DNA of 64,000 nucleotides from Planctomycetota bacterium (GTDB taxonomy: Bacteria > Planctomycetota > Phycisphaerae > Sedimentisphaerales > Anaerobacaceae), in assembly GCA_019456255.1 (NCBI GenBank), contig VRUG01000012.1:1-64000 (forward strand), read 5' to 3'. The notes beneath the pieces were generated by a model, which worked only from the letters and a program-made list of their open reading frames with translations, was not told the DNA's origin and did no database searches. Of the stretch, positions 1 through 14,362 are shown one piece after another; the first letter of the stretch is position 1; the number at the start of each line of letters is the position of its first letter. Made by a program: the position numbers and the translations under genes.

Positions 1-162
1 GGCGGTGGCGGTCGTGGTGGCGGCGGTGGCGGTCGTGGCGGCGGTGGTGGCGGCGGCGGTCGTGGCGGTGGCGGTGGCGGCGGCGGTCGTGGCGGCGGTG
101 GCGGCGGTGGTCGTGGCGGCGGTTCAGGTAGTGGCGGCGGTTCAGGTAGTGGCGGAGGTGGT
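1..162 (+). repeat. GGC/GGT/CGT codon repeat coding for a Gly/Arg tract
   Basis: Near-perfect reiteration of glycine codons, broken at intervals by single CGT (Arg) codons and, from about 121, by two Gly-Ser-Gly-Ser units. In the secretin frame it reads as runs of 4-9 Gly between single Arg residues. Other frames give Ala/Val-rich or similar meaningless translations. The tract begins before the window, so its full length is unknown. It is prone to slippage in replication and to collapse in assembly. Confidence 0.9.
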
Positions 163-1242
163 GAATTATCAGGCCTTGGTTTGGTAGAAGAAAGAATTGA
201 AGACATCGTTTTACTGATACAGGAAAGTGTAGATTTTGAAAGCTGGTACGAAAACGGCGGCGAAGCTACTATTAGACCATATGCTAATAATAAGCTCGTC
301 ATAAAACAAACGCCGGAAAATCATAGAAAAATCAGAAAAGTATTAAACGGTTTAGGGAAAAGTTTTACTCAGCAGGTTTCAATTGAAGCAAGATTTCTTA
401 CCGTCACAGAGAACTTCCTCGAAGATATAGGACTTGATTTTGACCTCACATATAACACAGGCGGACAATCTGGAATCATAGGCTTTAATCAGGGGTCCTC
501 AAACCTTGTAACACCGGGACCAACAAGAGTTTCGGGAAGCTTGGCACCGCTTGCAAATGATGCCATTTCATTCAATTGGCCAAATATCTCAGTGCCAATA
601 CTCGACGACCTACAGGTAAGTTTCCTCATCAGAGCTACACAGGCGCATTCCGATTCTAAAACTTTAAATGCGCCAAAGGTTACAGTTATAAGTGGCGATT
701 CTGCCGCTATAAGAATTGAAACTGAGAAAGCGTATGTTTCAGATTATGACTTTGAAGATATAACTGCTGCTGGCATAGATCCAATAACAAGAATTATTGC
801 TGACCCTGTCATAGACACCATTCTTGACGGTGTCGTACTGAATGTCACACCTATTGTAAGTGATGATAAAAAATATGTACTTATGAGAATATTGACCTCA
901 TTTACTGAGTCAAGAATCGATGACTTCGAAATACCTACTGGAGTAGAAGGGCAAACGTTCAGGATTCAGTTGCCCATTGCGGAAATTGCTGAGATACATA
1001 CGAAAGTTAACATACCGGATGGTGGAACATTGCTTATTGGTGGACAAAAACTTACCGGTACAAATGAGATGGAAGCAGGAGTACCGATACTTAGTAAGAT
1101 TCCGATACTCGGAAGGCTTTTTGAAAACAGAAGTAAAGTCAAGGACCACAAGATATTATTGATACTGGTAAAGCCAACTATACTATTGCAGAATGAGCAG
1201 GAAGCAAGAGCTCTGGGCGAATTAGGTGGTGACAGTTATTAA
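1..1242 (+). CDS. Secretin (GspD/PilQ-like outer-membrane channel), 5' end outside window
   Basis: The reading frame is open from base 1, so this is the C-terminal 413 residues of a longer protein. Residues 1-54 are almost only Gly with scattered Arg and Ser. Then comes a short N-domain-like segment (about residues 61-115) and the secretin core starting near VSIEARFLTVTENFLEDIG, a common secretin signature. The closing part has the typical PDGGTLLIGG and GVPILSKIPILGRLF motifs before a short tail. Secretins form the multimeric outer-membrane pore of type II secretion or type IV pilus systems. No other secretion genes are visible downstream, so the type cannot be fixed. A TTG at 181 could be mistaken for the start, but the same frame continues upstream without a stop. 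The next gene, 201 bp downstream, encodes a huge exported protein, a possible but unproven substrate. Confidence 0.88.
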   Translation, partial: GGGGRGGGGGGRGGGGGGGGRGGGGGGGGRGGGGGGGRGGGSGSGGGSGSGGGGELSGLGLVEERIEDIVLLIQESVDFESWYENGGEATIRPYANNKLVIKQTPENHRKIRKVLNGLGKSFTQQVSIEARFLTVTENFLEDIGLDFDLTYNTGGQSGIIGFNQGSSNLVTPGPTRVSGSLAPLANDAISFNWPNISVPILDDLQVSFLIRATQAHSDSKTLNAPKVTVISGDSAAIRIETEKAYVSDYDFEDITAAGIDPITRIIADPVIDTILDGVVLNVTPIVSDDKKYVLMRILTSFTESRIDDFEIPTGVEGQTFRIQLPIAEIAEIHTKVNIPDGGTLLIGGQKLTGTNEMEAGVPILSKIPILGRLFENRSKVKDHKILLILVKPTILLQNEQEARALGELGGDSY

Positions 1243-1443: not shown

Positions 1444-4400
1444 ATGATGAAGCGGAATATTCTAATTAGCCTATTAATAGTCTTGGCACTGCAAACGGTC
1501 GTATCAGCAACGATATACTATGTCGACCCAGCCTCAAGAAGTTTCCCGACAATAGAGTCTGCCTTGAACGACCTGGGGATTGCCAACGGGGACACCGTTC
1601 TTGTTGCACCAGGTACTTATACTCCACCAACCAATGCGGGATACAATTTTAGCCCTATTGGTACCAGAAACATTATCCTCAAAAGCTGGATTAATCTGGC
1701 AGACCCAGACCCGAATATTATTGCTGATACTATCATCGATTGCCAGGGAATCAAAGGAAGCCCTAAACGTGCTTTTCATTTTGATAGTGGCGAAAATAAC
1801 AGCGCACAGGTTTTAGGATTTACTATTATTAATGGTTATCAGGAAGGTACCGCTGCTGCTGCAGGGCCTTTTCCTTCACTTAATGGCCCAGTCTTTCTAC
1901 CGGACGACGACTGCGAATATCCATGGGATGCTAATGATGGACTGGATGCTATTTCTGCCACAGACCCTCTCATAAACGATGGATACGGAGGAGCTTTCTT
2001 AATTGAAGCTGCAAGTTCCCCGACTATAGGCTGGTGTGTAATAAAAGATAATACCGTTACAGGACCGGTAGGTGGTAGAGGAGCTAACGGGCAAAATGGA
2101 CAATGGACCATGGATAACCCATGTAATGACCCATGCGATCCTAATGACGATGCCCCCCCCCTGGAATGGGACGATGGACAATGGGCCGGCGACGGTGGCG
2201 ATGGCATAGGAACTGGTTTTGGAGGAGCAATGGCGGTGAGAGGTGCTTCAAATCCAATCATACACAATTGTACTTTCGAAAACAATCAGGCACGAGGCGG
2301 AGTTGGAGGAGATGGAGGCAACGGAGGTAACGCTACGACAACTGACGGAGGAATCACTTATTCAGGAATGGCAAGCTTCGGAGGAAACGCAGGTGACAGT
2401 ATGGGTGACGGAGTCGGGGGCGCAATATACGCCGACAGCAACAGTCACCCGGTTGTTTCTAACTCCATCTTTAATGGAAATATTGCTACTACCGGATCAA
2501 GGGGACAGGGAGGATTAGCAGGGGCGGGTAATGCTGCTGCGTATGATTTTCTCCCTGCAAATACACCTGCTACAGATGGATTCCCTAGTTTTGTATGGGG
2601 TAACGGCGGCATTGCTGGAGGAGCAGCATACCACGCAAATACTTCAAACGCAAGTTACACATTATGCGATTTTATAAATAACCAGGCATATGAGGGAGAT
2701 TTCTTCCCGCCTACATTCTCAATAGGACCAGAAGTACTGAATTATACCATTGGAGGGGCCATATACATTGACAGTAATAATACAGTCCCAAGTACTGTCG
2801 CACTTGATAGTTCGAATTTTAGATCAAATATGGGCGGTGCCCTATATTGCGGACCAAGTACTATTTTGAATATCAATAATACTGCTGACCCTGAGAACCT
2901 TTGTATTTTTGCCGATAACTCAGACATGCAGGATGATGACGACCTTACAGCTTCAACTGGTCTTGACTTTGGCTCAGGAGCAGCTATTTATTTAGATACC
3001 GGATGTACCGTAAGTATACAAAACACCAGCTTTTCCGGTAATACTGCAAAAAATGACGGAGGCGCCATTGAATCGGCAAGTAGTATCGCCACACTTTCAA
3101 GTTGCTCATTTGGCAATAACCAGGCCAGCAGATACGGAGGAGCTGTGGACATCTATGAGCCCCTTGGGGCTAACCTAATGGTAAACATTGATGATTGCAG
3201 TTTCAATGGAAATCAGGCGCAATATGGAGGGGCTTTCGCTGCAGAACGCCTTAGAGCTGGGATTAGTTTTATTACTGACAGCATTTTCATAAACAATAAT
3301 GCCCTTAGCGGTGGAGCATTGGATATATTTGATGGAAACGTCATCATTGCAGGATGTACTATCAGCGATAATAGATCTACTGGTAACTATGGCGCAGGAG
3401 GCGCTATGGACTTGACAAGTACTGTGGCAGATATCATGCATTGCACTATTCAAGACAACACCGCAGAAGGGGCAAATGCCACAGGTGGAGCTATCAATAT
3501 TTATGGACTCTTTGATGGACTGCCAGGCAACGATACACATATTACAAACTCACTCTTAACAGGCAACCAGGCCGTCGCCGATGGAGGAGCTATCGCATGC
3601 TCCGCCAGCGTCACACCGGACGTAAATAACTGTACTTTCAGTGATAATTCAACAGATGGGTTCGGCGGAGCCATTTACGCCGACGACACCTCAAATCCTT
3701 TAATTGCAAACTCCATCTTCAACAATAACACAGGACATGCAATACATGAAGAAGATAACGGAGGAGATGCAACGGTCATATTTAGTTTATTCAATAATAA
3801 TCCCGAGGGCGACTACTATGATTCAGGTACAACAACGGTCTATGCAGGTGCTGCACAAATCCCTGCTATTCCTTCAGGCGCAAACAATCAGTACGGAGAC
3901 CCCATATTTGTTAACGGGCCGCTTGGCAGCTTTTATCTTATGCAAACTGATGCAAATGATGCCAATTATCCAGGACAGACCCAGGACAGTAACGCTATTA
4001 ACCTTGGAAATGTAAACCTGGCAGCATTTAATCCCGTAACTTTCGGTTGGGACCCGACCCTATATACTACAAGAACTAATAATGCTGGAGATAATGCCGT
4101 CCTTGATATGGGATATCATTATCCTAAAATCGCGGATGTAAATATCTTTGAACTGACTATTACAGTTGATTCAGGAAGTGGAACTCTTGAAGTAGTTTCT
4201 CCGGCTCCGATTGATTACAATTCCGTTACCGGAATATATACTTTCTATGCAGGGACAATAGTGACCTTGCAAGCGGCACCTGCCGGTGGATGGAAAGTTA
4301 ATACCTGGACAGGAACTGATGACGATTCTTCTACAAATAATATAAATATCGCTACTATGAATTCAAACAAAAATGTCAGAGTCCAATTCAATTTGCCAAG

Positions 4401-7400
4401 GACACTTATAGTTTCTGTTGGCGGAGGGGGTGCAGGATACTTCGCAAACATACAGGATGCGATACATAATTCTAACGATGGAGATGTCATTATTGTTTAC
4501 CCCGGTATTTATTATGGACCGGCCATACAAGTAACCAAATCCGTGGAAATCAGATCACTGCATCCAGAGGACCCGAGTTGGGTCGACCAGACTATCATCG
4601 ACAGAACAGGTTATGCAAACAGGGCATTTATTTTCCAGACAGGTTCAGAGGGTGCTGTCTTAAACGGACTGACAATACAAAACTGCAACTGGGTTATACT
4701 CGATAATTACGATGCCACAAGACCAGGGCTCGACGGTGGTTCTAACGGTGGTGCTGCAGGTGCTGCTATCGTCATTGATGCAGGAGTGAGCACTACATTC
4801 AAAAACTGCGTATTCAGGGACAACCGGATACGAGGCGGACATGGTTCTAACGGTGCTAATGCGGATATTTCACACAATGCAGGCCGTGGTGGATGGGGGC
4901 ATTGGGCAAGAGGAGGAGCCGTATACTGCGGACAAAATTCCACCGTTCTATTCGAAAACTGTAGAATGATTGACAATACTGCGGTAGGTGGTAACGGTGG
5001 TGATGGAGGGGACGAGGTTACACCAGGTGGTGTGGCAAACTATGGTGGAAACTGGAGCAGGGCCGAATGGATTAATATACAGTTCACAACTTCCACATGG
5101 GAACAGGGTGACCTTTGGGCGGTATGGCAGTCACACTTAGTCAGTCCTGATGGCCAGACGAGTACTCCGACAGGCAATTATATTGGTGATTATAGATGGT
5201 ACACTGGATATGGTGGTGCTGTCTATTGCGATAACCACAGTAACGTTACTTTCGATAACTGTACTATCTCTGGTAACCTTGCACAAGGTGGTATGAGTGG
5301 GCTCGGAGGAGAAAGACTAGGGGAAAATCCCGAACCAGAATTTAGATATGAACTGCCAAGTTTTGGAGGAGGCGTATACTGCTCTTTCGATTCTACAGTG
5401 ACATTTATCAATTGCAATATCGCTGACAATCTGGCCAGCGACCCGACATTCGACCATACTCCCGAAGATACTGGTCTTGGAGCAGAATATGACCCGCTAA
5501 ATAAATATAGGGTGGACCCATACCTCGGACATGGTGGTGGCGTATGTGCCGAAGATACCGCTAAAGTGACATTTATTGGATGTGACGTTAGGGATAATAC
5601 CGCTTCCGTTGGTGGTGGTATTAACTTTGCAAATGCAAATCCCGTTATAAGGAACAGCAATATTATTTCAAATACCGCATATCAGGGTGGAGGTATATTT
5701 GGACAGGATGGACAAGCAGATATCATTAATTCCGATTTCATCGGAAATATGGCAATCTCGGATGCCAATGACACAAACGTGATTATTTTAGCACAAGGTG
5801 GAGCGGTACACTTCTGGGCAGCCGATGTAAACATCGCGAATTCTTACTTCTCGCAAAACTATGCACAGGCTTCTGGAGGTGCAATATTCTTCGGAGGAGA
5901 AGGATACCCCACACTCTTTAACTGCCTTATTACTGACAATACTGCCGACAGAGATGGCGGAGGAGTTGCAAATAATTACTACTCACAATTGTCAATAGAA
6001 AACTGTACTATTGTTGACAACATTGTTACAGGGAATGGTTTTGACAATGATTATAGCGGAGGTGGGGCTATATTCGCTACCAGTACCGCATTTACACAAA
6101 TCATTAATAGTATTATATGGGATAACTATAGTTTTGACGGCTCACAAATTACAATTAGCGAAGTATCTGGAGGCAGCCAGAAGCCTTTAGTTATTTCTTA
6201 TAGTGATATCGGGCCGATGTATGACCCAACTGAATTTGCTGTAAGGACATTTGGAATTGCTGCATCAAGCAAACTGGTAGACAGTCAGGCTATATACGAC
6301 CAGTTTACTGCAGGGGCAACAAAGGCGGAAGTTATTGTTACTTTGCAGCAGCCTACAAAACCGTCAAACTGGAATTCTCAGGCACAGCTAAATGTATATA
6401 ACACACAGGTACAAAATCTCATACAGTCAGTTCTCGCGACACTGCCTTCATATAAATATGATTTGAGACACAGTTTCAAAAATATCGCGGGCTTCTCATG
6501 TGATATCACTACAGAAGGAATTGATATACTACTTGCGAATTCATCTGTTAAATACATTGAACCGGTTAGATATGTTCAGCCTACTCTAAGACAGGCAATT
6601 CCGCTCGCAAATGCTTTGGTACCAAGACTCACATATGATGGTACTGGCATAGCTATCGCAATTGTTGACTCAGGCGTTGATTATACACATCCTATGCTTG
6701 GCAACGGAACTTTCCCAAATAGCAAAGTCATCGGTGGTTATGATACTGGAGACAATGACCCGGACCCAATGCCAAGCGATGAAGCACATGGTACTGCATG
6801 TGCAGGTATTGCCGCAGGTGACATCGAAAATATAGGCGATTATATTGGTGGTGTTGCACACAATGCAAAAATATATGCGCTTAAGATGGCTGCAGATACA
6901 GGTTTTTGGCCGATTGATGCTGGCCTTGATGCATGGGATTGGTGCGTCACTCACCAAAATGATGACACAAGTAATCCTCTCCTGGTAATGAGTAATAGCT
7001 GGGGTGCAATTGATGCAAATGGTGGACCTATATTATTTGATAACGCTGCTGATGCAGATGCATTCTCACCGGCTATGGCCGAAGTGGCACAAAGAGCCGT
7101 CGATGCTGGAATTGCAATTCTCGCGGCCTCAGGTAATGATTACAGTGCTGGCGAAGGTATCTCTTGGCCGGCTGCTATGTCTAATGTTATCTCAGTTGGA
7201 GCTGTCTTCGATACAACCGACGAAGTTACCGGATATTCAAATACTGCGGATAATCTTGATATTCTCGCACCTGCAGACCCTATGTACACCACTGATATTG
7301 TTGGACCTCTTGGATACAGCTCAGGCGATTACACACCAAACTTCAATGGTACTTCTTCGGCAACGCCATTTGCCGCTGGTGTCGTCGCTGCTATTCAGCA

Positions 7401-10400
7401 GGCATCAAAAGAAAAACTCGGGGACTATCATACGCCGTCATCGCTAAGAGAATTACTTATAAGATCCGGTGACCCTGTCACTGATACCAAAGTACCAATT
7501 ACAAAACCAAGGGTTAATCTTGGTAATGCTATTGATAGTTTTGAATTTAGAGCGCCAATAACTCTCGATGGCGACTTAACCATTGATGGATTCGACGCAA
7601 ACGACCCTTGTGACCCATGGGCCCCCAACACTTTCAATATTCAGCTCGACCCCAACTTCATAGACGGATACCGATTACCACAGATTGCTGCCGGACAGTT
7701 ATATAACAGCATAGCTGTCAACGCTGGTAGCGACCTGGCACTCGTAATAGGACTGCACATGCTCACTACAAGAACTGATTCGATTCCAGATGACTATAAC
7801 TCCGTGGATCCTATGGATGACCCGAATAATGCTATAGTAGATATGGGGTATCACTACAACCTCTTTACTCCGGATACATACGCCTTGATTTTCACTGCTA
7901 TTGATAATAACGATATTGCCGACCCATGTGACCAGCCATTTATTATTACACCGCTTGGAGGAGAAACATATCCAGCATTTACAAATGTTTACCTTGAAGT
8001 GACTACGCCGCCTGACCAATACGAAGTTGTTTGGAGCGGAACTGAGAATGATGATAGTAATGAACCAGCAAATATCGTAGAGATGGATGGTGATAAACTT
8101 GTTACGGTAACATACGACAAAATAAGATTTAATCTTACGGTGAATGTAAACGGTTCCGGCGGAACCGTCACACCTACAAGCGGGGTCTATCGCAGAAATG
8201 AAGTAGTGTCAATTACTGCAACTCCAGATGAAGGCATGAGAGTCAAAGCATGGACAGGGACAGAAGATGATACCTCCGTCGAACTGAATAATACCGTAAT
8301 TATGGACGACGATAAAATTGTTACGGTTGAATTTGAACTGCCGCAGATAATAACTGTACCGGGAGAATACTCTTCCATCCAGCAGGCTTTCGATGCTGCA
8401 CAAGAAGGTGACACCATTCTAATTGGTACAGGTACCTATATTACTTCTGCGGGATACACCATTTATGATAAGAATGTTATTATTTCAAGCGAAAACCCCG
8501 ATGACCCATGCGTTGTTGCTGCAACTGTTATACAACTGGCTGCCGGTGCCAGTGGGGGTGTCAGTTCTGCTTTCAATATTATGAATGTTGGTCGTGAGAC
8601 AGTTATTAATGGAATCACTATAAGAGGCTTTACTTTTACCTCACTTAGTGGTTTGGATGGTGTAAACGCGGGTGATAGTGGATTTAATGGAGGTACTGCC
8701 ACAGGTGGAGCTTTTGATATTATAAATGCCTCTCCAACAATTAAAAACTGTATGATCATTGATTGTGGTGTAACTGGTGGTAATGGTGGTAACGGTGCTG
8801 CCGGTGCAGATCCGAATTTAGATGGTGGTCATGGTGGTTGGCCTGGGGGTGCATATGGTGGTGGTATGTATATTGCTGGAAACAGTAGCCCTCAGATAAT
8901 AAATACCACCTTTGTAAACTGTTATGCTATCGGTGGTAATGGCGGCAACGGTGGAGATGGAGCAGATGCTGACCCTCTCTATGGAGATGGAGGGCTTGGT
9001 GGAGGATGGTATTATCCCTTCCCTGTCGATTGGCCATATGGTCCTTATCGATTCTATACAAAATATTCGGGTCTTGGTGGTGCGGTATATGTTGGCCAAA
9101 CAAGTTCACCTGTCTTTAGAAATTGTACCTTTGAAAATAATACTGTTTCGGGCGGCTTTTCTGGTATTCAGGGAATAAGCCAGCCATCAGGTTTAATAGG
9201 TGAACCAAGCATTAACTGGAAAATAGACACCTTCGGTGGTGCCGTATACTGTGACGCAAATAGTCTGGTGACATTTGTAGGCTGTCATTTTGAGGATAAT
9301 TTTGCTGACACAAGCTATCCTGCCAATAATGACGACCCATTCGTCAGCCTTGGAGGTGCTGTCGCATTCGAAGACGGCGCAGATGTCACATTTAACGATT
9401 GTTCATTTAATAACAATACTGCCGCTATCGGTGGTGGCGTATATGCAAATGATAGCAGAATGAGGGTGACAAAATCTGAGTTTTCCGCTAATAACGCATA
9501 TAATGGAGGCGGCTTATATTTCGTCGATGGCAGTGTAGATATTATTAAATGCGACATCACAAATAACTCTGCCGTTGATATTAACACTATTGGCGATGCA
9601 AATGCCGTTGTACTGGGCAATGGGGGAGGTATTTACTGCAGCTCTTCCGATGCATATATTGCAGACAACATAATCACTTATAACAAATCAAACAAATCAG
9701 GCGGTGGTATATACCTCGCAGGTGACAGCGACCCTGATGTCTTTAACTGCCTTATTGCAAATAATGAAGCCGGAAGTGACGGAGGCGGGATCTCGGTAAG
9801 CTGGAGCGCAAGAGCTTATATCGAAAATTGCACTATCGTAAACAATGAAGCTGTAGGATTGTATGGTGAGACAACAACCGCTGGATACGGCGGAGGACTA
9901 TTCGCCGGATATGATGGAAATACCGTCGTTATTGACACCATTATTAGAGATAACTTTGCACGACAGGAAGGACAGCAAGTTGCAATTAAAAGCTCGGATG
10001 GACAAAATTCAGCCGTGACGATTTCTTATAGCGATATTCTTGGCGCCCAGGGACAGATGTATATCGACACTAATTCTACTCTGAATTGGGAAACTGGCAA
10101 TTTCGATATCGACCCAATATTTGCTACAGGGCCTTTAGGGGAGTATTATCTAAGCCAAACCGATGCAGGAAATCCTGCTGACAGTCCGTGTCTAAACACC
10201 GGTAGTGACACCGCTGAAAATATCGGATTAGCAATGGGATATACTACAAGAACCGACCACGTCTCGGATAAACAAACCGTCGATGTTGGTTTCCATTATC
10301 CTTTAGAAATCTACGAGCAGGAAGAATGCAAAATCTATGATTTAAATGATGATTTCAGCGTAGACTTTTACGACCTACAGATAATTCTTGCCGACTGGCT

Positions 10401-11502
10401 CAGTTTATTACCATCTGATGCTGACTTTAACGAAGACGGTATCGTAGACTTACTCGATATTAGTATATTCGCTCAATGCTGGGCGGTTAATGACGACAAT
10501 CCCCCATATCCAAGTCCGCTCCAATGGGAAATTGTGCCTTATGCTCTATCACAGTCTTCTACGGAAATGGTCGCTGTACAGGCAAGAGACACGTGGACCA
10601 ATACCATCTTTTACTACTATGAGTGTGTCAGCGGACCATGTAATGACAGCGGATGGCTCATCGAGGACCTCAATGAGCCAAACTATATAGATACCGGACT
10701 GCCTACAGATACGGTCGTCGGATACAGAGTAAAGGCAAAGGATGAACGTGGAAATGAAACACAATGGTCCACTATAAAATATATCCAGACCACAACAGAT
10801 ATTATAGCGCCGGTAACTGACCCGGATGCAAACGCACCTGCAAGGTACAGAAGCACTTGGGACGGACCTTTGGTGCCCGATGCAACAAAGATCACAATGA
10901 GAGTTACACCAGCTACTGATGAAAGCGGCGTTGAATACTACTTCAAATGTACAGACGGTGGCGCGGACCCCAACATACATGACAGCGGATGGCAGGACAG
11001 TACTGAATATGAAGCTACCGGACTATTGCCCGAAACTACATACACCTTCAAAGTCAGGGCGCAGGACAAGTCCCCATTGAAAAATGGTGGAGACTACTCC
11101 CTTGAAGATTCAGCAACAACATTGACTGACGATGCAAATGCTCCGGAGCCGGCACCTACTATTACAGCAAATACAGCTTACGAGTCCATTGGCTCTTCAT
11201 ATCATCAAACTATTATAAATACCGTTGCAGTAACAGATGATATCGACCCAAGGGAAAATCTTGAAATTAATTTCATCTGCGTTCATGATTCTGCAAGAAG
11301 TAGCGGATGGGTTCCAATGATTGGAGTAGCTGACATTACTGTGCATCCAGATTCAGTGGTCAGTTATGCAGGTGACGTTGTCACTTATGATGCTTTTGTC
11401 TCCTCATTCACGCCGCCACCTGTATATGACTGGTATGTTTGTGTCAGAGATGTTGCTGAACTCGAGACATGCTCACCTGACGTGACGACAGGATCGCCAT
11501 AA
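1444..11502 (+). CDS. Giant exported parallel beta-helix protein with an embedded subtilisin (S8) protease and dockerin-like repeats
   Basis: 3352 residues; signal peptide 1-22 (cleavage after VVSA). Start ATG has TAGGAG upstream; a small ACAGC/GCTGT hairpin lies in the leader. Three right-handed beta-helix modules with many Gly-Gly-Ala-[IV]-Tyr and N-x-[ST]-F turns cover about 23-890, 985-1580 and 2300-2890. Each module ends in a similar tail reading [T]TRT...[VL]DMGYHY or VDVGFHY. Divergent InlB-type/Listeria-Bacteroides-like repeats (GW.V..W.GT.DD) link the modules. Inside the tail of module 2 lies an I9-like propeptide (about 1600-1715) and a full S8 domain with Asp1742, His1782 and Ser1971 (GTSSATP). 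Residues about 2965-3022 hold two D-x-N-x-D dockerin-like loops, followed by fibronectin-III-like domains. No PEP-CTERM or LPXTG tail is visible. Likely role: surface adhesin or polymer-binding protein with proteolytic activity; the target is unknown. Confidence 0.88.
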   Translation: MMKRNILISLLIVLALQTVVSATIYYVDPASRSFPTIESALNDLGIANGDTVLVAPGTYTPPTNAGYNFSPIGTRNIILKSWINLADPDPNIIADTIIDCQGIKGSPKRAFHFDSGENNSAQVLGFTIINGYQEGTAAAAGPFPSLNGPVFLPDDDCEYPWDANDGLDAISATDPLINDGYGGAFLIEAASSPTIGWCVIKDNTVTGPVGGRGANGQNGQWTMDNPCNDPCDPNDDAPPLEWDDGQWAGDGGDGIGTGFGGAMAVRGASNPIIHNCTFENNQARGGVGGDGGNGGNATTTDGGITYSGMASFGGNAGDSMGDGVGGAIYADSNSHPVVSNSIFNGNIATTGSRGQGGLAGAGNAAAYDFLPANTPATDGFPSFVWGNGGIAGGAAYHANTSNASYTLCDFINNQAYEGDFFPPTFSIGPEVLNYTIGGAIYIDSNNTVPSTVALDSSNFRSNMGGALYCGPSTILNINNTADPENLCIFADNSDMQDDDDLTASTGLDFGSGAAIYLDTGCTVSIQNTSFSGNTAKNDGGAIESASSIATLSSCSFGNNQASRYGGAVDIYEPLGANLMVNIDDCSFNGNQAQYGGAFAAERLRAGISFITDSIFINNNALSGGALDIFDGNVIIAGCTISDNRSTGNYGAGGAMDLTSTVADIMHCTIQDNTAEGANATGGAINIYGLFDGLPGNDTHITNSLLTGNQAVADGGAIACSASVTPDVNNCTFSDNSTDGFGGAIYADDTSNPLIANSIFNNNTGHAIHEEDNGGDATVIFSLFNNNPEGDYYDSGTTTVYAGAAQIPAIPSGANNQYGDPIFVNGPLGSFYLMQTDANDANYPGQTQDSNAINLGNVNLAAFNPVTFGWDPTLYTTRTNNAGDNAVLDMGYHYPKIADVNIFELTITVDSGSGTLEVVSPAPIDYNSVTGIYTFYAGTIVTLQAAPAGGWKVNTWTGTDDDSSTNNINIATMNSNKNVRVQFNLPRTLIVSVGGGGAGYFANIQDAIHNSNDGDVIIVYPGIYYGPAIQVTKSVEIRSLHPEDPSWVDQTIIDRTGYANRAFIFQTGSEGAVLNGLTIQNCNWVILDNYDATRPGLDGGSNGGAAGAAIVIDAGVSTTFKNCVFRDNRIRGGHGSNGANADISHNAGRGGWGHWARGGAVYCGQNSTVLFENCRMIDNTAVGGNGGDGGDEVTPGGVANYGGNWSRAEWINIQFTTSTWEQGDLWAVWQSHLVSPDGQTSTPTGNYIGDYRWYTGYGGAVYCDNHSNVTFDNCTISGNLAQGGMSGLGGERLGENPEPEFRYELPSFGGGVYCSFDSTVTFINCNIADNLASDPTFDHTPEDTGLGAEYDPLNKYRVDPYLGHGGGVCAEDTAKVTFIGCDVRDNTASVGGGINFANANPVIRNSNIISNTAYQGGGIFGQDGQADIINSDFIGNMAISDANDTNVIILAQGGAVHFWAADVNIANSYFSQNYAQASGGAIFFGGEGYPTLFNCLITDNTADRDGGGVANNYYSQLSIENCTIVDNIVTGNGFDNDYSGGGAIFATSTAFTQIINSIIWDNYSFDGSQITISEVSGGSQKPLVISYSDIGPMYDPTEFAVRTFGIAASSKLVDSQAIYDQFTAGATKAEVIVTLQQPTKPSNWNSQAQLNVYNTQVQNLIQSVLATLPSYKYDLRHSFKNIAGFSCDITTEGIDILLANSSVKYIEPVRYVQPTLRQAIPLANALVPRLTYDGTGIAIAIVDSGVDYTHPMLGNGTFPNSKVIGGYDTGDNDPDPMPSDEAHGTACAGIAAGDIENIGDYIGGVAHNAKIYALKMAADTGFWPIDAGLDAWDWCVTHQNDDTSNPLLVMSNSWGAIDANGGPILFDNAADADAFSPAMAEVAQRAVDAGIAILAASGNDYSAGEGISWPAAMSNVISVGAVFDTTDEVTGYSNTADNLDILAPADPMYTTDIVGPLGYSSGDYTPNFNGTSSATPFAAGVVAAIQQASKEKLGDYHTPSSLRELLIRSGDPVTDTKVPITKPRVNLGNAIDSFEFRAPITLDGDLTIDGFDANDPCDPWAPNTFNIQLDPNFIDGYRLPQIAAGQLYNSIAVNAGSDLALVIGLHMLTTRTDSIPDDYNSVDPMDDPNNAIVDMGYHYNLFTPDTYALIFTAIDNNDIADPCDQPFIITPLGGETYPAFTNVYLEVTTPPDQYEVVWSGTENDDSNEPANIVEMDGDKLVTVTYDKIRFNLTVNVNGSGGTVTPTSGVYRRNEVVSITATPDEGMRVKAWTGTEDDTSVELNNTVIMDDDKIVTVEFELPQIITVPGEYSSIQQAFDAAQEGDTILIGTGTYITSAGYTIYDKNVIISSENPDDPCVVAATVIQLAAGASGGVSSAFNIMNVGRETVINGITIRGFTFTSLSGLDGVNAGDSGFNGGTATGGAFDIINASPTIKNCMIIDCGVTGGNGGNGAAGADPNLDGGHGGWPGGAYGGGMYIAGNSSPQIINTTFVNCYAIGGNGGNGGDGADADPLYGDGGLGGGWYYPFPVDWPYGPYRFYTKYSGLGGAVYVGQTSSPVFRNCTFENNTVSGGFSGIQGISQPSGLIGEPSINWKIDTFGGAVYCDANSLVTFVGCHFEDNFADTSYPANNDDPFVSLGGAVAFEDGADVTFNDCSFNNNTAAIGGGVYANDSRMRVTKSEFSANNAYNGGGLYFVDGSVDIIKCDITNNSAVDINTIGDANAVVLGNGGGIYCSSSDAYIADNIITYNKSNKSGGGIYLAGDSDPDVFNCLIANNEAGSDGGGISVSWSARAYIENCTIVNNEAVGLYGETTTAGYGGGLFAGYDGNTVVIDTIIRDNFARQEGQQVAIKSSDGQNSAVTISYSDILGAQGQMYIDTNSTLNWETGNFDIDPIFATGPLGEYYLSQTDAGNPADSPCLNTGSDTAENIGLAMGYTTRTDHVSDKQTVDVGFHYPLEIYEQEECKIYDLNDDFSVDFYDLQIILADWLSLLPSDADFNEDGIVDLLDISIFAQCWAVNDDNPPYPSPLQWEIVPYALSQSSTEMVAVQARDTWTNTIFYYYECVSGPCNDSGWLIEDLNEPNYIDTGLPTDTVVGYRVKAKDERGNETQWSTIKYIQTTTDIIAPVTDPDANAPARYRSTWDGPLVPDATKITMRVTPATDESGVEYYFKCTDGGADPNIHDSGWQDSTEYEATGLLPETTYTFKVRAQDKSPLKNGGDYSLEDSATTLTDDANAPEPAPTITANTAYESIGSSYHQTIINTVAVTDDIDPRENLEINFICVHDSARSSGWVPMIGVADITVHPDSVVSYAGDVVTYDAFVSSFTPPPVYDWYVCVRDVAELETCSPDVTTGSP

Positions 11503-11722: not shown

Positions 11723-13054
11723 TTACTGACTAAACTTCTCCTTCAATTGCTGATAACCGTAGTGCGCCAGAAGATTATCAAGAATCACCATCGCTGTATA
11801 ATTCTCTGCTACTGGCCAGATACGAGCCGCGATCGTTGGGTCACGCCTTGTAATAGCTGCCATGTCCTTGTTCTCAAGAGTATATTTATCTATCGTATGT
11901 TGAGGCTTATCAATTGTAGGTGTAGGCTTTACCGCAATCCTGACAATAATATCCTGACCACTCGTCAAACCGCCGGTTATCCCGCCGGCATTATTCGAAT
12001 CAAAGACTACCTTACCATCTTCTGAATGCATCTGGTCATTAGACTCAAAACCTGTCATGTCCTTGACCGCAAAACCAGCACCGATCTCAACGCCCTTAAC
12101 CGCCCCGATTCCTAACATCCTGCCGAGTTCTGCGTCCATCTTATTAAATACCGGCTCACCAAGACCAACAGGTGCGCCAGTCACTACTATCTCGACAACC
12201 CCGCCAGCCGAATCGCCCGTACTGCTTATCTTATTGCACGACGCTACCATCTCATCAGCAACGCTAATATCAGGACAATTCAATACAGGATGAACTCCGT
12301 ATTTTTCTTTTATCTCTTCAACACTCATCTTCGGCGCCTTGCCCCGAATGTCATCTATCTCCTGTTCGATTTCCGCGAAAACTTTCATCTTCTCAAGAAA
12401 ACGCATCTCAGGTTTAACGCGACCTTTCACATAAACCTCCTGATAAAACGGGTCAAGGTCGTGCCTCATCTGTTTATATTTTTCCGTATACGCAAGAGCT
12501 TTCGCTGAATCAATACCGTCAAACTTAACTCCCGCAAGTTCCGTCACATAACTAAATACCTCTATCCCGCACTTTTTAAGAACCTTCTTGGCAACATAGC
12601 CAGCTGCAACGATCGTTGATGTATATCTACCACTAAAAAATCCCGCACCAATCGCGTCATCATCGGCACCGTACTTCATAAAAGAAGCATAAGACGCATG
12701 ACCAGGCCGAGGCGTACGATTCGTGTCTTGATATTGCTTGATATGAATAAAATGACGGTCAAGATTAGGTATCAAAATACAAAGAGGCGTCCCGTTAGTA
12801 TGGTTCCAGTTGCCGGCCCCCTCAATAGTATCAGCTGCGTTCACACCGCTGTAAATTACCGGCAAATCCGGCTCCTTGCGAGGACTCGAAAGCTCGTCGG
12901 CTCCGGGCTTACGCAAAAGCATATCACCATAAATCTCCTGCTCAGTAATAAGCATCCCCGGTGGATTACCCTGTATCGTCGCTGACAAACCATCCTGATA
13001 TGAACCACCTGCTACCGTTACCTGAAACATTCGTCCAATATGACAACCTATCAT
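11723..13054 (-). CDS. aroC: Chorismate synthase
   Basis: Last step of the shikimate pathway: converts 5-enolpyruvylshikimate-3-phosphate to chorismate with reduced FMN. Family signatures are clear: the N-terminal GRMFQVTVAGGSYQDGL region, RPGHASYASFMKYG, FNKMDAELGRMLGIGAVKGVEIG and DSNNAGGITGG. At 443 residues it is longer than the usual 350-400; the extra length is a charged helical segment at about 190-255 (YQEVYVKGRVKPEM...EEIKEKYG). It lies 45 bp downstream of aroA on the same strand, so the two probably share a transcript and supply consecutive pathway steps. Confidence 0.93.
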   Translation of the reverse strand: MIGCHIGRMFQVTVAGGSYQDGLSATIQGNPPGMLITEQEIYGDMLLRKPGADELSSPRKEPDLPVIYSGVNAADTIEGAGNWNHTNGTPLCILIPNLDRHFIHIKQYQDTNRTPRPGHASYASFMKYGADDDAIGAGFFSGRYTSTIVAAGYVAKKVLKKCGIEVFSYVTELAGVKFDGIDSAKALAYTEKYKQMRHDLDPFYQEVYVKGRVKPEMRFLEKMKVFAEIEQEIDDIRGKAPKMSVEEIKEKYGVHPVLNCPDISVADEMVASCNKISSTGDSAGGVVEIVVTGAPVGLGEPVFNKMDAELGRMLGIGAVKGVEIGAGFAVKDMTGFESNDQMHSEDGKVVFDSNNAGGITGGLTSGQDIIVRIAVKPTPTIDKPQHTIDKYTLENKDMAAITRRDPTIAARIWPVAENYTAMVILDNLLAHYGYQQLKEKFSQ

Positions 13055-13099: not shown

Positions 13100-14362
13100 T
13101 TATTTGTGGAAAATTTCAAACCTTTCCCAAAAGTCTGGAAACGATTTCGCCACGCACATTTCGTCCTCGATCACCTGTTCGCCCGTTACAAGCCCAGCAA
13201 CAGCGAAACTCATCGCGATTCTATGGTCATTATGCGGGTCAATCACTGCCCCCCGGCAATTCCGATTGCCCTCTATTATCAAAGAATCATCCCCGCATTC
13301 AGCTTTAATCCCCATCTTATTAAGCTCCGCCGCCATCACCGCCAACCGGTCGCATTCCTTGTGCCTCAAGTGCCCGATTCCCGTCAATCTGCTAACCCCA
13401 TCAGCAAAACCGCAAGCTATCGCCGCCGGCGGTACAAGGTCGGGTATATCACTCATATCAACAGTTATCGCCGCAAGACCAGTACCCTCTACGCAAATTC
13501 CCTCATCCGTCGCGCTCACCTTACAGCCCATCTTAGCCATCAAATCGAGAAAACCCTTATCTCCCTGATGCGTATCTTCAGACAATCCGCTTACCGTAAC
13601 CTTAGATTGACAAATCGCCGCCGCCAAAAAGAAAAACGACGCACTGCTGTAATCGCCTTCAACTTCCAGATCAATACCGCTGTATTTTTGACCGCCGGCA
13701 ATTTTTATTTCCTTATAATTATCATTTTCAACCTCAATCCCGAACTTGCTCATCATACCGAGACTAATATCAAAATATGGCTTTTCAGTCATCTCATCAA
13801 CGCATCTTAATGTCACCGCCTCCCTTGCATAAGGCGCCGATGTCACTATCGAACTAAAATACTGCGACGTCTTGTCACCTCTAATCTCAGCGACCCCGCC
13901 CCCGATACCACCGCCATCAATTTTAATCGGCGGGAAACCTTCACTACCAAGATATTCGATCTTGCACCCTAATTGCCTGAGTCCGTCAACCACTTCAAAG
14001 ATGGGCCTCTCAGTAATCCTCTTCGCGCCCGTCAATATCACAGCCTTATCACAAAGATTTGCGACCGAACTCAAAAAGTTCATACCAACACCAGATTCAC
14101 CGACATTCAGCTCATCAACCACCGGAGAAAATACCCCGCCGCTGCCCTCTATGATTATTTTATCCGAACTCACCTCAATACCGACACCAAGCTGCTTCAA
14201 ACATTCAATCACATTAAGCTGGTCCTCGCCCAGAAGCGGATTACTAAGTACACTCGTCCCCTCCGCCAGAGAACCGATTATCAACCCGCGCAGAGTATGA
14301 GCCTTCGATGCCGGTGCACGAACCAATGCCTCCATATTCGAAATTTTGGATACTTTTTTCAT
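13100..14362 (-). CDS. aroA: 3-phosphoshikimate 1-carboxyvinyltransferase (EPSP synthase)
   Basis: 420 residues with the two-domain EPSP synthase pattern: APASKAHTLRGLIIGSLAEG near the N-terminus, LRHKECDRLAVMAAELNKMG and the C-terminal PHNDHRIAMSFAVAGL motif. It joins PEP to shikimate-3-phosphate. The phosphate-binding loop that reads GN[AS]GT in well-known enzymes here reads GESGVGMNF, a divergent form. aroA is followed directly by aroC, and lies 83 bp after the protease gene. The start has the usual short leading MKKVSK; no alternative start is better supported. Confidence 0.92.
   Translation of the reverse strand: MKKVSKISNMEALVRAPASKAHTLRGLIIGSLAEGTSVLSNPLLGEDQLNVIECLKQLGVGIEVSSDKIIIEGSGGVFSPVVDELNVGESGVGMNFLSSVANLCDKAVILTGAKRITERPIFEVVDGLRQLGCKIEYLGSEGFPPIKIDGGGIGGGVAEIRGDKTSQYFSSIVTSAPYAREAVTLRCVDEMTEKPYFDISLGMMSKFGIEVENDNYKEIKIAGGQKYSGIDLEVEGDYSSASFFFLAAAICQSKVTVSGLSEDTHQGDKGFLDLMAKMGCKVSATDEGICVEGTGLAAITVDMSDIPDLVPPAAIACGFADGVSRLTGIGHLRHKECDRLAVMAAELNKMGIKAECGDDSLIIEGNRNCRGAVIDPHNDHRIAMSFAVAGLVTGEQVIEDEMCVAKSFPDFWERFEIFHK

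Follow-up and report, generated by a model that had tools for sequence, protein, structure and literature searches.

A β-helix loop in giant planctomycete proteins that likely serves as a port for unrelated whole domains, among them a subtilisin-type pro-protease

In this study, we analyzed a 64,000-nucleotide stretch of planctomycete DNA (hereafter the window), near one end of which lies a gene for a giant protein that carries a subtilisin-type (S8) protease in its interior (Table 1). Its flanking genes include two on the opposite strand which we take to be aroC and aroA, their functions being recognized from sequence, and the order secretin-giant-aroC-aroA recurs in many relatives. The window's secretin is PilQ/GspD/MshL-like, with a long Gly/Arg-rich stretch, and stands directly upstream of the giant; secretins beside the giants of relatives reach 1344 residues, and at least one of them (L083, 1-1343) has a Gly/Met-rich stretch. 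A secretin is not a general neighbor of these giants, as it is present at the aroC-type locus and missing beside a second, dapL-type locus. At the latter, six giants with a nested S8 domain (L054, L076, L078, L079, L084 and L096, of Anaerohalosphaeraceae type) adjoin a gene for a DapL-like aminotransferase, and folK/panC-like genes are also near where the sequence extends far enough.

Table 1. Features of the giant-protein locus, in positions of the window
Feature	Nucleotides	Strand	Residues	Remarks
Secretin with Gly-rich stretch	1..1242	+		Truncated by contig start; conserved neighbor of giants at this locus
Giant secreted protein	1444..11502	+	3352 aa	Three β-helix modules, InlB-type (Flg_new_2) linkers, dockerin-like and fn3-like C-terminus
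β-helix module 1	1513..4122	+		Borders approximate; no insert; tail end DMGYHY
β-helix module 2, pre-port part	4411..6210	+	~990-1589	Start approximate; ends ..LVISYSDI
Guest in port	6211..7554	+	1590-2037	Linker, I9-type propeptide and S8 catalytic domain
I9-type propeptide	6274..6588	+	~1611-1715	Maturation cut predicted at ~L1715/R1716 (inference)
Peptidase_S8 domain	6640..7470	+		Asp1742 6667-6669; His1782 6787-6789; Asn1898 (oxyanion) 7135-7137; Ser1971 7354-7356
β-helix module 2, post-port part	7555..7860	+	2038-2139	ITLDGD..DPNFIDGY..TTRT..DMGYHYN
Module 3 equivalent site, empty	10018..10080	+		TISYSDI-LGAQ-GQMYIDTNST; 4-residue loop
aroC (chorismate synthase)	11723..13054	-		Downstream syntenic marker
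aroA (EPSP synthase)	13100..14362	-		Syntenic marker

Pfam recognized Beta_helix in eight stretches of the giant and two InlB-type linkers, and the protein begins with a signal-peptide-like sequence. The giant also contains POMP repeats according to NCBIfam (POMP_repeat, 16.8 against a cut-off of 15), whereas the Pfam family Chlam_PMP remained below threshold (17.8 vs 20.6), as did Dockerin_1 (13.6-16.9 vs 22.9 bits). These repeats recall the chlamydial polymorphic outer membrane proteins, from which the giant differs in lacking the C-terminal autotransporter domain. Since no C-terminal autotransporter β-barrel family could be found anywhere in the giant with Pfam or NCBIfam, and the S8 domain is located at residues 1733-2009 inside module 2 rather than at the N-terminus, we rejected the possibility that the giant is an autotransporter.

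The position of the protease was then defined by comparison among the modules. BLAST of the whole giant against itself returned the trivial self-match alone. When the S8 part was removed, module 2 could be aligned collinearly with module 3 over 730 columns in one piece (identity 34%, E-value 3e-114), and the break falls directly after YSDI. Homology in the tail of module 2 restarts near residue 2038, where PITLDGD.. corresponds to GQMYIDTNST.. of module 3; taken by itself, this re-entry segment gave E-values of 2e-9 against module 3 and 1e-4 against module 1. The subtilisin is thus an internal insertion in module 2 and not an end-to-end fusion, because both flanks align to uninterrupted modules, 38 relatives are nested likewise, and syntenic orthologues without the insert exist. 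Neither border repeats nor a GC step were found at the insert, and a mobile-element insertion was rejected. A sequence-only reading of the giant had already proposed an internal insertion in module 2 with modules 1 and 3 uninterrupted, and both claims held: module 1 has no insert and the module 3 site is empty (LGAQ). Its motifs were likewise confirmed, including VISYSDIGPMYDP from residue 1583, LDPNFIDGY at 2068, TTRT at 875, 2108 and 2934, and the tail ends DMGYHY at 888 and 2133 and DVGFHY at 2947, together with the catalytic residues Asp1742, His1782 and Ser1971. Its estimate of an insert of some 300 residues failed, as the insert comprises about 448 residues when the linker and propeptide are counted; and its claim that the module resumes with LDPNFIDGY held only in part, since the motif is present and homology restarts earlier. 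What it had named as a refutation, an S8 domain at a normal domain border in all relatives, was not met.

Sequence analysis showed that the insert, which occupies a fixed loop of the β-helix, is a pro-protease that is complete and under constraint, although its proteolytic activity is inferred. The Peptidase_S8 family (PF00082) matched at 132.4 bits (cut-off 21.8; E-value 2.6e-38), and the Asp/His/Ser triad and the oxyanion Asn are not only intact in the giant but also invariant across nested copies, apart from one truncated row that does not cover the Asp. The I9-like propeptide of the sequence-only reading was slightly below threshold in Pfam (Inhibitor_I9, PF05922, residues 1630-1708; 20.2 vs 21.2 bits). 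For an AlphaFold2 model of residues 1257-2142, built from 33 window and locus sequences (pLDDT 77.7, pTM 0.63), the top PDB matches by Foldseek were pro-subtilisins with the propeptide in place (3afg, 3whi and pro-Tk-subtilisin). The model is of moderate quality and is weak around model residues 665-714, including the approach to the Ser loop. Propeptides are more similar among nested copies than among free-standing enzymes (identity 0.47 and 0.33, respectively), whereas the catalytic domains are similarly conserved (0.64 vs 0.66), and both groups have the junction motif L-[AR]-Q-[AG]-[IL]-P-L in common. From this motif and the pro-subtilisin matches we infer a maturation cut near 1715/1716; a phmmer search with the propeptide by itself gave no alignment of the processing site with a solved pro-subtilisin. 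The mycosin family of type VII secretion (T7SS; NCBIfam TIGR03921) scored far below its cut-off (86.5-89.4 vs 278.75).

To examine the distribution of this architecture, 60 relatives were collected in a first search and their full reading frames were then read. About a dozen giants among them were nested alike, with YSDI(GP) before the pro-S8 part and PIYVE.GC.L.GW..DPNF..GYYLSQ..TTRTD..D.VDMGYHY after it, and a one-off insertion limited to this genome was rejected, as nested relatives occur in many genomes. In a scan of 84,980 species genomes, the best loci, among them the window, contained 80 S8 domains, and 38 of these were nested. All nested copies belonged to Planctomycetota, namely Sedimentisphaerales, Anaerohalosphaeraceae, other Phycisphaerae metagenome-assembled genomes (MAGs) and two contigs from one MAG labelled Pirellulales; most non-nested members of the set were secreted, free-standing enzymes belonging to several phyla. 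Within the window's order, strong matches were found in 53 of 161 genomes, including nested giants in three families (f1, f2 and f7), and class and phylum searches beyond the order returned matches in far shorter frames (661-2198 residues), which were not inspected singly. Apart from the MAG labelled Pirellulales, the nested clade was encountered in no order but the window's across the genomes covered. In the phylogenetic tree, nested S8 domains formed one clade with a support of 100 and a single de-nested member (L111, with an N-terminal S8), and the free-standing enzymes were their sister group. Since the S8 guests form one clade, the nested placement was gained once within S8 and later moved with or between hosts. 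The N-terminal location of a nested-clade S8 (L111, 6832-17337; L040) shows that the domain occurs outside the port too. Single frames of 10,565-12,792 codons (G071 C56, with L184 and L242; G032 C19, with L036 and L037) contain two S8 ports and a large number of β-helix modules.

Profiles of the strands flanking the insert were run over all giants, and the corresponding loop was found to have exactly 4 residues in empty modules, 447-473 in modules with S8 and 218-350 in others. Clustering of the loop contents gave S8 (39), VWA (19), NIDO (8), a propeller-like domain (4), choice-of-anchor-L (3) and empty sites (8); as the profiles were trained on S8-bearing hosts, these counts should not be taken as unbiased frequencies. 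The identities of three guests were supported by VWA_4 (31.7 bits, above the cut-off of 27), NIDO (1.1e-26) and choice_anch_L (3.9e-74). Most VWA guests keep the metal-site motif D[ST][ST]x[ST]M, and integrin β-I domains were matched when a module with a VWA guest was modelled. The remaining guest had no Pfam or NCBIfam match, and the name propeller-like is inferred from its sequence alone. It has about 300-350 residues and was seen in L189 (residues 551-872 and 1690-2006 of the giant that starts at locus base 4251 on the + strand), L214 and L233. Therefore, the insertion site is likely a port that holds unrelated whole domains, not the site of a one-off fusion. That the nested architecture is old and conserved, and that the same site accepts four or more further kinds of domain, had been overlooked by the sequence-only reading.

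Comparison of hosts, all from metagenome assemblies, suggested that guests are exchanged. The hosts of a VWA guest (L068) and a propeller-like guest (L189) are 78% identical before the port and 77% after it, and those of a VWA guest (L071) and an S8 guest (L068) are 76% identical before and 61% after; in neither pair do the guests have significant similarity. With guests removed, mean host identity was 46.0% for hosts with the same guest and 45.5% for hosts with different guests. Guests also occur in tandem within single proteins, in differing orders such as S8-NIDO-VWA, VWA-S8-NIDO, NIDO-S8 and S8-choice-L. In-frame recombination at the port would be the simplest reading of the exchange, which remains an inference.

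Orthologous giants exist both with and without the insert, as revealed by a census of the aroC locus. Among 30 giants with complete N-termini, a nested S8 alone was present in 3, and a nested together with an N-terminal S8 in 2; half (15) had no S8 other than an N-terminal one, which belonged to another lineage in 14 and to the nested clade in 1, and in 10 no S8 was detected. A few of the N-terminal matches were fragmentary. The last module of L175, for example, is a plain relative of module 2 and aligns to it at 42%. In several giants (L174, L175, L176, L179, L180, L181, L182 and L049) an N-terminal S8 of the other lineage, with 25-30% identity to the nested S8, replaces the nested one; most of these are at the aroC locus, and the contig of L049 has just the secretin neighbor.

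Based on these results, the giant is likely a secreted stalk with exchangeable guests in a plug-in port, one of them a latent protease; its location at the surface, its secretion and the activity of the protease are inferences made without biochemistry. The giants of this planctomycete order are assembled from β-helix modules. One class of these has a 4-residue turn, between the ..YSDI and ..PIYVExGC.L.GW strands, that can host a whole globular domain looping out from the closing part of the β-helix. In this model, guests would be swapped by in-frame recombination, and the stalk may show them outside the cell, as inferred from the signal peptide and the secretin neighbor. The S8 guest would be made as a zymogen and become an active extracellular protease. 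The least certain steps are that subtilisin-type maturation at about 1715/1716 would split the giant's chain mid-way in module 2, and that the halves would stay joined via the closed β-helix and propeptide-enzyme contact. A bolder reading, in which the port swaps unrelated domains by recombination and maturation of the nested zymogen halves the scaffold chain while the closed β-helix keeps the halves together, falls slightly short of being probable in our opinion.

Other explanations should also be considered. The S8 domain might be a built-in maturation protease that cuts the giant's own chain, at the propeptide junction and perhaps at inter-module linkers, the nesting serving that purpose. 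The propeptide and AQxIPL-like junction are conserved in nested copies, and 20 of the 30 aroC-locus giants have an N-terminal and/or nested S8; however, 10 of them have no detected S8, which is thus not required for the giant as such, and non-enzymatic domains occupy the same port. On balance, the evidence tilts a little against this explanation. Alternatively, the S8 domain may be a protease on display for digestion or attack, its targets being host proteins or proteins bound to a polymer, and the stalk and the other guests would be responsible for binding. The adhesion-type companions (VWA and NIDO) in the same chains, the signal-peptide-like start of the giant and the subtilase autotransporters, which pair a protease and a β-helix against outside targets (PMC9977779), are in favor of this view, but there is no direct evidence for surface location and no identified substrate. 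This explanation could about equally well be right or wrong. The suggestion of the sequence-only reading that the protease matures its own protein or cuts a polymer or host target is still an inference.

Two further explanations fared worse. An ordinary single domain insertion that drifted to fixation without any functional port would agree with the single origin of the nested S8 clade, but it appears very improbable in view of the four other unrelated domains at the same position and the near-identical hosts with different guests. An assembly or gene-calling artefact, by which a separate protease gene became merged with a repeat gene, might be suspected, since the relatives are MAGs and the window's contig comes from a 340-contig assembly; however, dozens of independent assemblies show an open frame across the insert, there is no GC break and there are no border repeats, and an artefact can be almost completely ruled out.

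Parts of the port architecture have precedents, and domain insertion itself is known. The subtilase autotransporter Ssp of Serratia marcescens (PMC9977779) likewise combines a subtilisin and a right-handed β-helix in one secreted chain; its S8 domain is N-terminal and caps the helix, and a C-terminal translocator follows, whereas in the giant the S8 domain lies in a late loop of an internal module and no β-barrel Pfam match is present. In SPATE autotransporters, globular domains also jut from β-helix loops, but the protease is chymotrypsin-like and accompanied by an autotransporter barrel, and swapping of unrelated guests at a single loop is not described (PMC9977779). Integrin α subunits carry a whole I (VWA) domain at one defined loop of a repeat scaffold, a β-propeller (PMC12422189); there, one kind of guest is used, in contrast with S8, VWA, NIDO, choice-of-anchor-L and propeller-like guests in the loop of the giants. 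Free-standing S8 enzymes of Planctomycetota, Verrucomicrobiota and Desulfobacteria (L085-L129, without the nested L096, L104 and L117) have the same propeptide, triad and junction motif at about 39-50% identity, but are mostly N-terminal after a signal peptide and have an additional loop with Cys, which is absent from nested copies. Very large secreted β-helix-repeat proteins have likewise been reported among planctomycete/PVC giants with β-helix (CASH) domains (PMC12057145), in a text that mentions neither subtilisin nor proteases and in which we found no nested guest described. Thus, chains with a protease and a β-helix (Ssp) and domains inserted at a single loop (integrin αI) are already known. 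No description of the port or of the nested protease was found in the literature searched, most subscription papers being outside its scope, nor did the papers that could be searched report any single β-helix loop that naturally takes five or more unrelated guests.

The port exemplifies how a general grafting site in a repeat scaffold occurs in nature, and it is a possible scaffold to display inserted domains. It raises the question of whether a zymogen can complete its maturation in the nested state and leave its host unbroken, and it offers a concrete handle on giant planctomycete genes without known function.
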